This document shows positions 776 to 6,774 of a stretch of 6,774 nucleotides of DNA, piece by piece. Under the pieces are notes generated by a model. The model saw nothing but the letters and a program-made list of their open reading frames with translations, was not told the origin of the DNA and did not search any database. Both the position numbers and the translations under genes were made by a program. Numbering within the stretch: the first letter of the stretch is position 1; every line of letters starts with the position of its first letter. The stretch is from Candidatus Woesearchaeota archaeon (GTDB lineage: Archaea > Nanobdellota > Nanobdellia > Woesearchaeales > ARS49): positions 1 through 6,774 of the forward strand of contig JACQMU010000074.1 of the NCBI GenBank assembly GCA_016203425.1, given 5' to 3'.

Positions 776-1306
776 TTACTCGAATTCTATTTCTATACTT
801 TCCCAGTCTTCTTCTTTAGCACCATATCTTTGAAAAACGACGAAGTGGAGATGGGGTTCTGTAGAATAACCTGTGTTTCCGCTCAAACCAATCACTTGAC
901 CATTTTGAACAGTTTGGCCTTTTTTCACTAAGATTCCTTGATGTTTTAGGTGAACATACTGAGAAAATTCATTGTCTTCATGCTGGAGAGTTATGTAATT
1001 GGCTTCATTCGCCAATTTTGGATCGTTACCACCTGTTTTTGAATTTTTCTTGTAGTCTACCACAATACCATCTCTGGCAGCCAGAACCGGACTGTCTTCT
1101 GGCATCACAAAATCTATTGCAAATTTTAGCTTCCCGTAATGAACTTTTGTATCAGAAACAGCCTGTGCCTGAGCTTCCTTTCGAAAGGGCAATCCATACT
1201 TGTATTTTGATCGCGCCATACTGTAAAAAGCGAATAAAGTATATAAAAATCCATCGATGAACTTCAGTTTTTCTTCTTCAAGTTTAGATATTGCTTCAAC
1301 AATCAT
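776..1306 (-). CDS. M23 (LytM/lysostaphin-type) zinc metallopeptidase domain protein
   Basis: The 176-residue protein carries a full M23 catalytic domain at about residues 38-160. Visible motifs are H56 and D65 (zinc ligands, in an H-x8-D arrangement as in 'SH...YAIDF' members), 'PVLAARDGIVV' at 73-83, H119 in 'QYVHL', 'VKKGQTVQNGQVIGLSGNTGYS' around 127-148, and the H152-L-H154 motif in PHLHF. All the zinc and catalytic histidines expected are present, so it should be active. Family members cut short peptide cross-links, in bacteria mostly those of peptidoglycan. Residues 17-29 are hydrophobic and could be a weak membrane or export segment. A shorter start at Met30 (1219) would leave just the domain. 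ATG 1306 is preferred because a TATA-like box lies about 29 nt upstream. Its codon use lacks the strong A/C skew of the surrounding genes. Confidence 0.88.
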   Translation of the reverse strand: MIVEAISKLEEEKLKFIDGFLYTLFAFYSMARSKYKYGLPFRKEAQAQAVSDTKVHYGKLKFAIDFVMPEDSPVLAARDGIVVDYKKNSKTGGNDPKLANEANYITLQHEDNEFSQYVHLKHQGILVKKGQTVQNGQVIGLSGNTGYSTEPHLHFVVFQRYGAKEEDWESIEIEFE

Positions 1307-1558: not shown

Positions 1559-1843
1559 TCATAGTGTCAGAAACTCATCAATAATCTTTTTAGTGTCATC
1601 AACACAAACTTTTTTGAAAAACACACCTTCAGGATAAATCACAATCGTGGGCCCTTCTGCACAATGCCCCAAACATTTTGTTTTTGTCACGTTAAACTCA
1701 TGCACGAGGCCATTATTATTAATGTGCTCTCTCAAAATACGCAAGATTTCAGTGCTGTTTCTTTTTGCACAACAGTCACCAGAATCGCGTTCATTAATGC
1801 ACACAAAAATATGGTGCTTGTACTTCTTGTTGATTTGCTCCAC
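1559..1843 (-). CDS. Thioredoxin-like [2Fe-2S] ferredoxin
   Basis: The protein of 94 residues matches the small thioredoxin-fold (2Fe-2S) ferredoxin family. It shows 'HHIFVCINER' at 10-19 with C15, 'GDCCAKRNS' with C24/C25, 'TKCLGHCAEGP' at 55-65 with C57 and C61, and 'IVIYPEGVFF' at 67-76. C15, C25 (or C24), C57 and C61 are the likely cluster ligands, in the family's C-x(8-12)-C...C-x3-C spacing; C80 is extra. It is a soluble electron carrier whose partner is not encoded nearby. The frame extends upstream to TTG 1897, but no ATG exists in it. GTG 1843 is chosen because it gives the usual family N-terminus just before 'YKHHIFVC' and lies 27.5 nt from a TATA box, which implies a leaderless transcript. 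The residues upstream of it (frame from 1897) would cover the promoter. Confidence 0.85.
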   Translation of the reverse strand: MEQINKKYKHHIFVCINERDSGDCCAKRNSTEILRILREHINNNGLVHEFNVTKTKCLGHCAEGPTIVIYPEGVFFKKVCVDDTKKIIDEFLTL

Positions 1844-1866
1844 AACACTGCCAAAAATAACACAAC

Positions 1867-1874
1867 ATTTAAAA
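1867..1874. promoter_or_regulatory. Shared bidirectional TATA box
   Basis: ATTTAAAA on the plus strand reads TTTTAAAT on the minus strand. Its centre (1870.5) is exactly 27.5 nt from the ATG at 1898 and exactly 27.5 nt from the ferredoxin GTG at 1843. Both spacings suit a leaderless archaeal transcript. A-rich sequence flanks the box on the upstream side for the minus direction (AAAAAAGATTAG), resembling a BRE. There is no other obvious TATA box between the two starts, so this one probably drives both genes. Confidence 0.55.
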
Positions 1875-1897
1875 CTAATCTTTTTTAAGAATGACAA

Positions 1898-2476
1898 ATG
1901 TTTGACAAAAAAACAGCAATGTCCTTATTTATTGCAGCCATCATGATACTAAGCGTACTGGGATTTGTACTTGTAGATAATGGCGGCGACAATTTAAAAC
2001 AAAAATATGGAGAACACACTTTTTTACGGCTGCCACAAGGATGGAGAACAACCATCAACGGACAACAATTTGTTTTTAATTATTTCCCAGAACAACTGGA
2101 AGACATAAAACTGCCCACTAACACAACTGCATTAAAAGAAAGCCCAATCATAGCATTCAGTTATGACCCAAACAACAGGTACGCAGAAGATTTAGGCGCA
2201 CTACAATATTATTTTGAGACAACAGTCACCAACAAACAACGATACGTCCAACGCGGGCTAACAAACACAACAACATACACAACACTACCAGAAATAACCT
2301 GCAAAAACGCAACACAACAACTGCCAGTCATTGTTTTAAACCTCAACACAAAACTCAACGCAACAGACATTCATTACAAAAACAACTGCCTAACAATCAC
2401 CGCAGACCGAGCACAAGAACTCTACACAACAACAGACAGGTTAATATACTCCTTCCTTGGAATAATGCAACCATGA
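1898..2476 (+). CDS. Membrane-anchored extracytoplasmic protein, paralogue of the next gene
   Basis: A 192-residue protein of unknown function. Residues 3-7 are charged, residues 8-27 form one transmembrane helix, and about 165 residues then follow, probably outside the cell. The outside part contains 'PIIAFSYDPNNRYAEDLGAL' at about 83-102, 'EITCKNATQQLPVIVLNL' at 132-149 with C135, 'NNCLTITA' with C164, and a last helix, 'DRLIYSFLGIMQP'. The two cysteines may form a disulfide. The same order of elements occurs in the following gene, so the two are diverged tandem duplicates. Similar proteins recur in Woesearchaeota-like genomes, as far as I recall. ATG 1898 is supported by the TATA spacing; ATG 1919 (Met8) is an alternative. 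It is the first gene of a three-gene overlapping operon. Several N-x-T/S sequons (N75, N122, N137, N154) fit an exported protein. Confidence 0.75.
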   Translation: MFDKKTAMSLFIAAIMILSVLGFVLVDNGGDNLKQKYGEHTFLRLPQGWRTTINGQQFVFNYFPEQLEDIKLPTNTTALKESPIIAFSYDPNNRYAEDLGALQYYFETTVTNKQRYVQRGLTNTTTYTTLPEITCKNATQQLPVIVLNLNTKLNATDIHYKNNCLTITADRAQELYTTTDRLIYSFLGIMQP

Positions 2477-3132
2477 CCGAAACAACACAAAACGACAAAC
2501 TGCAAAACATCTTTGTCATCTGCACAACAATTGTCGTGATATTATTTTTGTTAGCAGTATTCTTTGGAGTAAAGTACTACCACCAGCCAAAACCAACAGA
2601 AACAAAAAACTACGGCGCATTCAAATTCATAAAACAAGATGTTATATGGTACATGAACTGGCAACGAGCAGGCAACACCTACAAAATAGGGCTCAAATAC
2701 ACCCCAGATGAAACAGAAGACATTCCAATCGTAGGAGAACTCAACAACAGCTTCAACAAAAAAAACAAAATCTACATTGCATTTGACCCATTCTCAGGCA
2801 ACAAAAGCTTCAAATATTTAGCACACGCAGCATCGGAACTAACAACACAACTAACAGGGCCATTAGGACGAGAAGCAGTAGCAGCATGCACGCGAGGCGA
2901 ACAAACAGACGCATGCAAAGAACGACCAGTAGTAACGTGCGACAACAAAGAATTAAACATCATCATACTCAAAGAAGCAGAACCAACACACATAAAACTC
3001 AGCGGCACATGCATCATCATCCAAGGCAAAGAAAATGAATTATTAAGAGCACTTGAAAAAGCACTGTACACATGGTTCGGCATAATCAAAAACCCAATCA
3101 TACCAGTACCACCGGAATTAGCCAATGAATGA
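2473..3132 (+). CDS. Membrane-anchored extracytoplasmic protein, second paralogue
   Basis: This 219-residue protein begins inside the previous gene's stop (ATGA, 4-nt overlap), which implies coupled translation. Residues 13-35 form a transmembrane helix and the rest is probably outside. Elements matching the upstream paralogue, in order: 'YGAFKF' (47-52; YGEHTF upstream), 'YTPDETEDIPI' (76-86; YFPEQLEDIKL), 'KIYIAFDP' (99-106; PIIAFSYDP), 'VTCDN' with C156 (ITCKN), 'GTCIIIQG' with C180 (NNCLTITA), and 'ALYTWFGIIKNP' (LIYSFLGIMQP). C139 and C148 form an extra pair that the first copy lacks. The C156-C180 pair is therefore the conserved one. Function is unknown; two non-identical copies side by side suggest a heteromeric surface complex. 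Confidence 0.75.
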   Translation: MTETTQNDKLQNIFVICTTIVVILFLLAVFFGVKYYHQPKPTETKNYGAFKFIKQDVIWYMNWQRAGNTYKIGLKYTPDETEDIPIVGELNNSFNKKNKIYIAFDPFSGNKSFKYLAHAASELTTQLTGPLGREAVAACTRGEQTDACKERPVVTCDNKELNIIILKEAEPTHIKLSGTCIIIQGKENELLRALEKALYTWFGIIKNPIIPVPPELANE

Positions 3133-3736: not shown

Positions 3737-5854
3737 CTACACTTTACAATCCTGCGAACACGTTGTTCTTGTTTCATCAAGACCACAAACACCATTACCA
3801 CAACCGCACAACAAAGGAGTTTCAACAACATTCCCAGAAACCTTTTTGCCAACTGCAACATAAGATTCACCAGAAACACAACCCGCCACCTTAAAACGAA
3901 CAAAACGATTCCAGCCAAGCAAAGAATTATCAACAGCAACATCACTGGAAATTATACGTGACATAACCCTGCGAGCAGTTGCATCGTCAGTCAAAGCAGT
4001 GTGCGTCAAAGGAAATAAGAAAAGATTTTTACACGACTCATTAGCAAAAAAAGGGCCGACACGAATGTCCTGCACACTCTTCACACTAGTAACACCATCA
4101 TTAGGCTCATTAATTCCGAAAATAACATCACTTGAAAAACTCACAGGACCAAGCCTAAAAGCATAAGGCTTGTTGCCTGCAATCGCAACATACGAAACAC
4201 CACTTAATTTCTCAGGCTCAAGTCCATTACGCAACTCATTCACAACAACATCATTCAGATTCAGCAACCCAATCTTGTCACCAGAATTAATCACATACTT
4301 AATAACATCCTTCAAAACAGCTAAGGCAGGCGTACCAGCATTAGGAGAACCAATAAGCACCACCTTGTCAACTTTTTTCAAAAAATTGAAACCACGCTCA
4401 GCACTAAGTTTTAATGCGTGCTGAACAACAAAACCACCCAACGAATGACCAACCAAATTAACGTTATCAAATTCATTCGCACGCGACTCCAACAAATCAG
4501 CAAGCTGCTGCCCAACACTCAAAGAAGGATGATCCATAGGATAAGATAAAACCCAAATCTGAAAAGGCTGCTTGTTCAAAACATAATCATCAATTACGTA
4601 CTGCCACGCAGCAGGACTGCTCAACAAACCATGCACCAAAACAATAGCATTTCTCGAACTGCCATTATAAACACGCTCAAGCTTAGCAGCATAACACGCA
4701 ACACACAAACGACCCATAACTGCAAACAACACTTCTTTATTTTTGTCCAGCACATTCTCAAAATCAGAAATTTCACCCACAAGCAACAACCGCTCAACAA
4801 CATAACTCGGCACAAACTCCCAACCATTCACAGCCCCGCGATACAAACCCAAATTCTTCATGTCAATATTCTCAAGCAACGAAAACTTTGCCAACACACG
4901 AACAGAAACATTCCTCAAAGAACCACTCTTCACTTTCAAGATTACTGGGGCGCCGACCATAACAAACTCTGGATTCAAAGGATTTGTTACATTACGCACA
5001 GGCGTGCTCACAGACACAACAAGCTCAGAAGAACGATTGCCAACAAAATCTATCACATAATTACCAAAAACCACTGTGTGCTCAGAAGGCTTCAACGTGA
5101 CTTCTGTGCTTTCCTTAAAACCCCAAGCACCCTCATTAAGCGCGCCTGGGCGAGACTCAAGCTGTTTTTTACGAAAGTCACGAACCGGCAAACCATTACA
5201 AACAAGCTCACCAACAGAACTATCCACCTTGCTCACAGGACGACAACCACCATTAATACAACGAACAACATTAACATCAGAAAAAACTTGCGGCACATTT
5301 AACGTCATATCAAGAGACTCACCATTACACGCAACACTAACAGGCTCACTTGCAAGCTCAAAACCATCTGGAACAAGAATTTCAGAAGCATCACCTTTCG
5401 ATAGAGATATTTTAGCATTCTCCTTACTAACAAACGCACAACTCACTTGATCATGCACAACTGTACTTACAGGAAAATCCGTAACACCCTTAACAAACAA
5501 AGAAGGACTCTTGTAACCACCAGGCAAATTAAAACCACTCGCCTGCACAGCATCAGCAGCCATCATGCCAGCAGCCGACTCAAAAACAACACTCTTCAAC
5601 TGAGCCTTCTGCGACATAGACTCAGCAAACAAACGCTTAAACTCAGCATCCCTCTCAAACAAAGACGCATTACCAACAACCAGTTTTTCAGGAAGCAGCT
5701 CTTTCTTTCCAGAAGTACCCTCAAACGTTTCTTCCTCAAGAGGCTGAACACGAAAAAACTGCCAAACAAGAAAAACAACAATCAATGCAATGAGAGAACC
5801 ATATAATACCGGCAGATAAGATTTAGGCGCGACATCAACACTCTTTTTGGACAT
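3737..5854 (-). CDS. Membrane-anchored alpha/beta hydrolase (lipase-like) with Cys-rich tail
   Basis: The 705-residue protein has one N-terminal transmembrane helix (about 15-34) after a basic start (MSKK), so most of it should face outside. Residues 40-380 are a mostly beta-rich region of unknown type with scattered Cys (C139, C176, C199, C204, C219). The hydrolase domain spans about 400-640: oxyanion strand 'AIVLVHGLLSSPAAW' (403-417), nucleophile elbow G469-H-S471-L-G-G, 'LIGSPNAGTP' (500-509), and probable catalytic D586 in 'NEPNDGVTS' and H618 in 'PLTHTAL'. This fits the lipase/PGAP1-like esterases that cut ester or acyl bonds; the substrate is unknown. The end, 'CGCGNGVC' (683-690) plus 'TTCSQDC' (697-703), resembles the CGNGVC...C..DC tails of archaeal surface proteins. 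ATG 5854 is supported by a TATA box. Its coding strand is G/T-rich. Confidence 0.88.
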   Translation of the reverse strand: MSKKSVDVAPKSYLPVLYGSLIALIVVFLVWQFFRVQPLEEETFEGTSGKKELLPEKLVVGNASLFERDAEFKRLFAESMSQKAQLKSVVFESAAGMMAADAVQASGFNLPGGYKSPSLFVKGVTDFPVSTVVHDQVSCAFVSKENAKISLSKGDASEILVPDGFELASEPVSVACNGESLDMTLNVPQVFSDVNVVRCINGGCRPVSKVDSSVGELVCNGLPVRDFRKKQLESRPGALNEGAWGFKESTEVTLKPSEHTVVFGNYVIDFVGNRSSELVVSVSTPVRNVTNPLNPEFVMVGAPVILKVKSGSLRNVSVRVLAKFSLLENIDMKNLGLYRGAVNGWEFVPSYVVERLLLVGEISDFENVLDKNKEVLFAVMGRLCVACYAAKLERVYNGSSRNAIVLVHGLLSSPAAWQYVIDDYVLNKQPFQIWVLSYPMDHPSLSVGQQLADLLESRANEFDNVNLVGHSLGGFVVQHALKLSAERGFNFLKKVDKVVLIGSPNAGTPALAVLKDVIKYVINSGDKIGLLNLNDVVVNELRNGLEPEKLSGVSYVAIAGNKPYAFRLGPVSFSSDVIFGINEPNDGVTSVKSVQDIRVGPFFANESCKNLFLFPLTHTALTDDATARRVMSRIISSDVAVDNSLLGWNRFVRFKVAGCVSGESYVAVGKKVSGNVVETPLLCGCGNGVCGLDETRTTCSQDCKV

Positions 5855-5904: not shown

Positions 5905-6414
5905 TCACTGCTTTTGCTGGTTTTTATCCCACATCGCCACATTTTTTCGAAGACCTGCCTCATACTCAACAAACGGTTCAAGACCAACTGCTGCCCTTCT
6001 TTCATCTAAATGCTTTTGGTCTTTTATCGGCCGAGGACCATACACGCCTTTTTTATCGACATAAAACTGCGTCCCATATACTTGCTTCTTCCCCTCATGC
6101 ACCAGAACACGATCAGTCAAATAAGCAAGACTTGCTTTATCTGCTTGATTTGCTTTCACGGCCTGCTCCAACAAATCAAGACATCTTTTTTGAAATTCGG
6201 GATCACGATCAGCATGCTGCACCAACAACCATGCAGCAAAAGCACCATCTTCACCCACCGAATTGTACGTTGGCCAGCCATGCATTTCAACAATCTCTTT
6301 CATTCGCTTCAGGTTACGTTCATCAACTGAAATGTCATAATCCTCAACCCTTTTCATACTTCTCCGCATATCCTGATCTTCTTTCATCATCCTCAGAAGT
6401 TCTTTTTGCAACAT
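5905..6414 (-). CDS. DUF6624 family protein
   Basis: A 169-residue soluble protein with the family's conserved series: 'HGWPTYNSVGEDGAFAAWLL' at 45-64, 'VQHADRDPEFQKRCLDLL' at 65-82, 'YLTDRVLVHEG' at 98-108, 'YGTQFY' at 113-118, 'GPRPI' at 126-130 and 'DERRAAVGLEP' at 137-147. The biochemical role of this family is not established. The first 40 residues are a charged helical region. The frame extends upstream to 6507, but that part overlaps the trmI coding sequence in another frame and is rich in aromatics. ATG 6414, 5 nt after the trmI stop, is therefore the natural start. No strong Shine-Dalgarno site is seen; GTGA lies 5 nt upstream within the trmI stop. The family is, to my knowledge, mostly bacterial, so transfer into an archaeon is possible. 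Confidence 0.85.
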   Translation of the reverse strand: MLQKELLRMMKEDQDMRRSMKRVEDYDISVDERNLKRMKEIVEMHGWPTYNSVGEDGAFAAWLLVQHADRDPEFQKRCLDLLEQAVKANQADKASLAYLTDRVLVHEGKKQVYGTQFYVDKKGVYGPRPIKDQKHLDERRAAVGLEPFVEYEAGLRKNVAMWDKNQQKQ

Positions 6415-6419
6415 TTTAT

Positions 6420-6774
6420 TCACGATATCTTTCTCACAAGCGTTAAAAAACCAGAATGACCAATAGAAATAGATTTTGGCCTTACACGACGATTGTTCAC
6501 TTCCCACAAACGCTCAATCAATTCTACTGTTTTAACAACAAGAAAATGCTCATTCTTTTCTAATGCGGAAACAAAATCCATAATTTGAGGAATTGTCGGA
6601 GAAAAGTTCACTATAAAACCACCAATTTTCAAAGCACTATCAATTGCAGGAACAGCTTTCCACGGCTCAGGAAGGTCTAAAGTAATAAGGTCAACATGCT
6701 TTTCATCAACACCATCATAAACACTCTTGTGCTTCACAGTAATGTTTTTCAAATTCAGAGACTCAATGTTAGAC
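6420..6774 (-). CDS. trmI: tRNA (adenine-N1)-methyltransferase TrmI, C-terminal part (5' end outside window)
   Basis: The frame runs without a stop from the right edge to TGA 6422-6420. About 118 residues are visible, beginning SNIESLNLKNITV. They include 'VDLITLDLPEPW', the motif IV region in which TrmI/Trm61 enzymes position the adenine, then 'ALKIGGFIVNFSPTIPQIM', 'ERLWEV', 'RVRPKS' and 'IGHSGFLTLVRKIS', the family's C-terminal signature (usually GHTGFL.. .R). TrmI is a SAM-dependent homotetramer that methylates N1 of A58 in the tRNA T-loop, and in archaea also A57. The SAM-binding motif I and the start lie beyond the window. It is co-transcribed with the DUF6624 gene, 5 nt downstream. Confidence 0.88.
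   Translation of the reverse strand, partial: SNIESLNLKNITVKHKSVYDGVDEKHVDLITLDLPEPWKAVPAIDSALKIGGFIVNFSPTIPQIMDFVSALEKNEHFLVVKTVELIERLWEVNNRRVRPKSISIGHSGFLTLVRKIS

Follow-up and report, generated by a model that had tools for sequence, protein, structure and literature searches.

In ordinary leaderless archaeal TATA promoters, a short and constant distance separates the box from the start codon of a single gene, and the transcript carries no leader. Symmetric bacterial and archaeal promoters are reportedly a cause of divergent transcription, to go by the title of Warman et al. 2021. In Pyrococcus furiosus, bidirectional BRE-TATA-BRE promoters have been described which, in the part of the source available to us, have in vitro support and include an example with starts 49 bp apart; the pairs analyzed there, whose starts were mapped, consist mainly of an mRNA and an antisense RNA (PMC6640164). 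In the bacterial symmetric case, as far as the accessible part of that source goes, the shared sequence is a −10 element and the starts are 18 bp apart (PMC10268837).

The locus compared here with these systems lies in a window of 6,774 nucleotides (the whole stretch of DNA that was analyzed), on contig 21 of a draft genome of 168 contigs (865,322 bases, 82.5% complete); its features are collected in Table 1. A ferredoxin gene starting at GTG 1843 on the minus strand and a membrane-protein operon starting at ATG 1898 on the plus strand face away from each other, with 54 bases in between (starts 55 bp apart). The midpoint of ATTTAAAA, 1870.5, is 27.5 nt from either start codon, and the claim in the initial annotation that one TATA box stands exactly midway between two starts is thus borne out by the sequence. 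The core TTTAAA occupies −30 to −25 relative to ATG 1898 and to GTG 1843 alike. The box is also nearly self-complementary, as had been pointed out. However, this is not a special feature of the locus: the consensus learned for the lineage, TTTATAAA, is itself a perfect palindrome, and near-self-complementarity is the rule there.

Table 1 Coordinates of genes and promoter elements in the window
Feature	Position	Strand	Remarks
M23 (LytM-like) peptidase	776-1306	-	PF01551, 78.3 bits
Thioredoxin-like [2Fe-2S] ferredoxin, 94 aa	1559..1843	-	GTG start 1843; PF01257
BRE-like stretch ACAACA	1862..1867	+	Last base doubles as first base of the box; both best-conserved BRE columns hold A
Candidate shared TATA box ATTTAAAA	1867..1874	.	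Palindromic core TTTAAA 1868-1873
Weak BRE-like stretch ATTAGT	1874..1879	-	One best-conserved BRE column holds A, the other does not
Rival AT-rich site TTAAAAAA	1881..1888	-	3.3 bits at −46; predicted leader about 16 bases
First membrane-anchored protein of the plus operon, 192 aa	1898..2476	+	ATG start 1898
Second membrane-anchored protein, 219 aa	2473..3132	+	ORF; 4-base overlap with the first gene
RsmC-like small methyltransferase, 200 aa	3125..3727	+	PF05175, 159.4 bits; 8-base overlap with the second gene
705-residue protein	3737-5854	-	Alpha/beta-hydrolase domain, residues 404-511, PF12697
DUF6624 protein (PF20329) and partial GCD14-type tRNA methyltransferase (PF08704, cut-off piece)	5905-6773	-	Two overlapping minus frames

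The promoter signal of the lineage was learned from a sample of the same genome (61 of the 168 contigs, 292,555 bases, 240 called genes) in which codon usage, rather than promoter signals, decided the choice of starts. The genes were called with a four-cluster codon model, as one codon model was unfit for two strand-dependent codon usages. The codon usage of the locus contig and 60 other contigs of the genome falls into strand-like clusters, with A/C-rich versus T/G-rich third positions, which suggests a strong strand composition skew. The motif TTTA[AT]A is most frequent at −30, where it is present in 17 of 130 upstream regions with the locus included and in 16 of 129 without its own gene, while the next highest position within −50 to −1 accounts for 5 of the 130 regions. 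Since the core begins at −30 of both starts and −30 is also the mode of the genome, the box stands, for either gene, at the most frequent leaderless position. The learned matrix spans 16 bases and has A-rich BRE positions ahead of TTTATAAA. The plus site, whose TATA box lies at the modal distance of the lineage from the start codon, scored 7.2 bits, within the top 0.08% of positions genome-wide, and the minus site on the ferredoxin side scored 2.9 bits (top 0.66%); when the matrix was retrained without close divergent pairs, the values were 9.5 and 3.1 bits, respectively. To judge from the letters, the geometry is exact and the minus-side sequence is weak.

We consider it fairly probable that the box at 1867-1874 acts as a shared leaderless promoter for both divergent genes, the membrane operon probably being the strong direction and the ferredoxin gene the weak one. 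TBP would bind the palindromic core TTTAAA in either orientation, TFB would read the flanking BRE and thereby set the direction, and RNA polymerase would initiate at the first base of ATG 1898 or of GTG 1843, or right next to it, so that leaderless mRNAs would be produced. We infer transcription in either direction, together with its strength, from these features. The initial annotation had proposed one box for two leaderless starts, and this proposal agrees with the geometry, with both start codons and with the pairs spaced 51–55 bases around a central box in three relatives (see below). Its further proposal of bidirectional use, however, is less well supported toward the ferredoxin, because the minus reading (2.9–3.1 bits) lies only at the 45th percentile of the backward readings of ordinary promoters in the same genome.

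A different explanation is that the box drives the membrane operon only. The ferredoxin gene would then have its promoter elsewhere, such as at TTAAAAAA at −46, from which the transcript would carry a leader of about 16 bases, and the exact midpoint would be a coincidence. We regard this explanation as possible though rather doubtful. It was stated in the initial annotation that no second TATA box exists between the starts, which does not hold: on the minus strand, the site at −46 scores 3.3 bits, as compared with 2.9 bits for the candidate shared box. This difference speaks for a box that works one way, as do the poor minus-side BRE and the minus score, which is of the size usually obtained when one-way promoters are read backward. 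Nevertheless, under this explanation the core would lie exactly at the modal position of a conserved start by coincidence, and no Shine-Dalgarno-like motif is seen that would fit a 16-base leader. By eye, neither start is preceded by GGAG, GAGG or GGTG; a Shine-Dalgarno-like motif near −11 is found in other genes of the same genome. The occurrence of TATA boxes at −30 of the ferredoxin genes of relatives also argues against it. Boxes scoring 6 bits or more between −32 and −28 were found at 15 ferredoxin loci and 20 membrane-protein loci, out of 29 in each case; duplicates and weak hits among the ferredoxin loci (nine ids), as well as the locus L111 at a contig edge, were left out of the count. 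By the same criterion, four control windows gave 1, 0, 0 and 0 of 29 for ferredoxin and 3, 0, 0 and 1 of 29 for the membrane protein. The contig-edge ferredoxin locus L111 itself has 5.8 bits at −30. The closest ferredoxin gene fetched, that of G070 (L003; 59% identity), lacks a box of this kind and lies 2 bases behind another gene. As each gene singly often has its own TATA box in relatives, the candidate shared box looks like two superimposed leaderless promoters.

A ferredoxin start at another codon, such as TTG 1897, to which the open frame indeed extends and which would place the box within the gene, is very improbable, because M stands at the GTG column in all 29 aligned ferredoxins (own included; 29 of the 35 proteins found) and only 3 of them extend upstream; GTG 1843, the start used in the initial annotation, is thus the conserved one. 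The ferredoxin matches PF01257 with 30.2 bits, above the cut-off of 24.8, its C15, C25, C57 and C61 are invariant across the 29 sequences, and it is 86% identical to P0002, which is named Candidatus Woesearchaeota; going by this name, the uncultured host is probably a Woesearchaeote. The alignment of the membrane protein comprised 10 of the 17 homologues identified, its own sequence being one of the 10, and the start of the other nine falls in the same column as the ATG in 5, lies 1–2 residues upstream in 3 and is annotated 15 residues later in 1. Both start codons are thus backed by homologues. Neither the 192-aa nor the 219-aa membrane protein has a Pfam or NCBIfam match. In several relatives (e.g., G013:C14:456-1579), a second, weaker membrane-protein match is located directly behind the first, and from this arrangement the first two genes of the plus operon (1898-3132) may be tandem paralogues.

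Three observations were made on the outer genes of the window. One is that a peptidase of the M23 family, which is best known from murein cleavage, is encoded here in a probable archaeon. Another is that the 705-residue protein has, by eye, a hydrophobic N-terminal stretch. The last is that the true start of the DUF6624 protein is probably further in than listed.

Among the 96 genomes (E 0.001, own genome included in both counts), relatives of the membrane protein were found in 86 genomes, and matches of the ferredoxin, some of them weak, in 12. In a larger set, the ferredoxin was found in 33 of 352 members of the order (E 1e-15). The two genes are not neighbors in any of the 11 other genomes in which a ferredoxin match was obtained. 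The initial annotation had also suggested that the box could tie ferredoxin expression to the membrane-protein operon, but the pairing itself is not kept across the genomes searched. For P0003 and P0037, close homologues of the two proteins, the longest contig is given as 7,467 bases in both cases, and this common figure suggests that a single near relative may carry the pair as well. A scan of genome contigs with the membrane protein and a scan of viral contigs with the ferredoxin confirmed no relative, and an exact 20-base search gave one contig, from an Acholeplasmataceae bacterium.

Divergent pairs with a spacing similar to that of the locus recur in three other members of its family. Among the 186 divergent pairs of these three genomes, G015, G011 and G007, 10 are spaced by 51–55 bases and 12 by the other 36 spacings within 35–75 (binomial P 1.2e-4, for a window picked after viewing the data); with the window of 54 ± 2 bases taken from the locus, the counts are 9 versus 13 (P 6.6e-4). 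All ten pairs at 51–55 bases carry one central box that reads at least 4.7 bits in both directions. Read in the weaker direction, these boxes rank at the 79th–100th percentile (mean 0.90) of single promoters read backward (KS P 1.9e-7, with search widths that differ slightly between the two sets), whereas the weaker direction of the present locus lies at the 45th. Among the 12 flanking pairs, a loose definition of a shared box picked out one, the two box readings of which are 8 bases apart. In G089, which belongs to another family, none of 76 divergent pairs falls at 51–55 bases and one is at 49. In the own-genome sample, none of the 27 other called divergent pairs falls at 51–55 bases. The caller missed the short 94-aa ferredoxin, so that counts of pairs involving short genes may be too low. 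This spacing cluster in family members is a more interesting lead than the locus itself. We tentatively suggest that the family may possess a discrete head-to-head class with 51–55 bases between the starts, fixed by leaderless translation and the palindromic TATA box. One TBP site would feed two leaderless mRNAs in turn, so that the partners would be tied in mean output but compete at each initiation, and the ferredoxin/membrane-protein pair would be a young, lopsided member. Nothing seen supports a regulatory purpose of the link in the present pair, and gene packing is enough to explain the arrangement.

Whole-genome pattern counts were rejected as evidence for shared promoters. The pattern CAT-N22-TTTATAAA-N22-ATG occurs at 60 sites in 41 of the 96 genomes, as compared with 5 and 2 sites for the wrong symmetric spacings N17 and N27 and 3 for the reversed control. 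However, a control with one side wrong (N17/N22) gave 37 sites in 30 of the 96 genomes. If the two sides are independent, about 68 symmetric sites are to be expected from this figure (18.5²/5), so that there is no excess over independent one-sided leaderless promoters. None of three CAT-N22 sites checked for frames has long frames on both sides. A CAY/RTG pattern around TTTAAA (145 sites versus 23 in the reversed control) was also discarded, as it is contaminated by a CACT...AGTG element. Start-codon pairs collected without a gene caller (frames of at least 80 codons) show no peak at 50–54, and spurious frames swamp this count.

The contaminating element, CACT-n(3-5)-AGTG, recurs in relatives about 14 bases upstream of TTTAAATA boxes, for example at G007:C26:138049, G007:C26:169707, G013:C21:1771 and G083:C12:59314, and it has a sequence resembling a regulator site. 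It occurs four times in a G007 stretch and not in G000, G015, G011 and G089 (shuffles 0–0.33), and a stricter form is found in 3 of 24 genomes of the family.

If the proposed class is real, head-to-head leaderless pairs at 51–55 bases could be recognized as shared promoters directly in the sequences of uncultivated archaea, and such pairs would offer a compact test of how the orientation of TBP and TFB splits output between two mRNAs.

With the symmetric promoters of Warman et al. 2021, as the title presents them, the locus shares promoter symmetry as a candidate cause of divergent transcription. Unlike in the bacterial symmetric promoter, as described in the accessible part of its source (PMC10268837), the element here is an archaeal TATA box. 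The likeness is greater to the BRE-TATA-BRE promoters, as far as the available part of that report goes (PMC6640164): one near-symmetric, TTTAAA-centered box stands midway between two starts about 50 bp apart and would be read both ways, with the direction left to TFB. Here, however, two protein genes are concerned, their leaderless starts 55 bp apart are predicted, and the BRE is good on the plus side and weak on the minus side (2.9 bits, 45th percentile). The principle of a bidirectional box is already known from another archaeon, P. furiosus, whose report (PMC6640164) was the one directly relevant archaeal paper that the literature search turned up, and the present locus is a further, rather weak example; its own interest is modest, given a mechanism already described and an apparently weak ferredoxin direction. 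As compared with ordinary leaderless archaeal TATA promoters, the plus direction appears to be a normal example; those promoters serve one gene, whereas the box here is placed for two.
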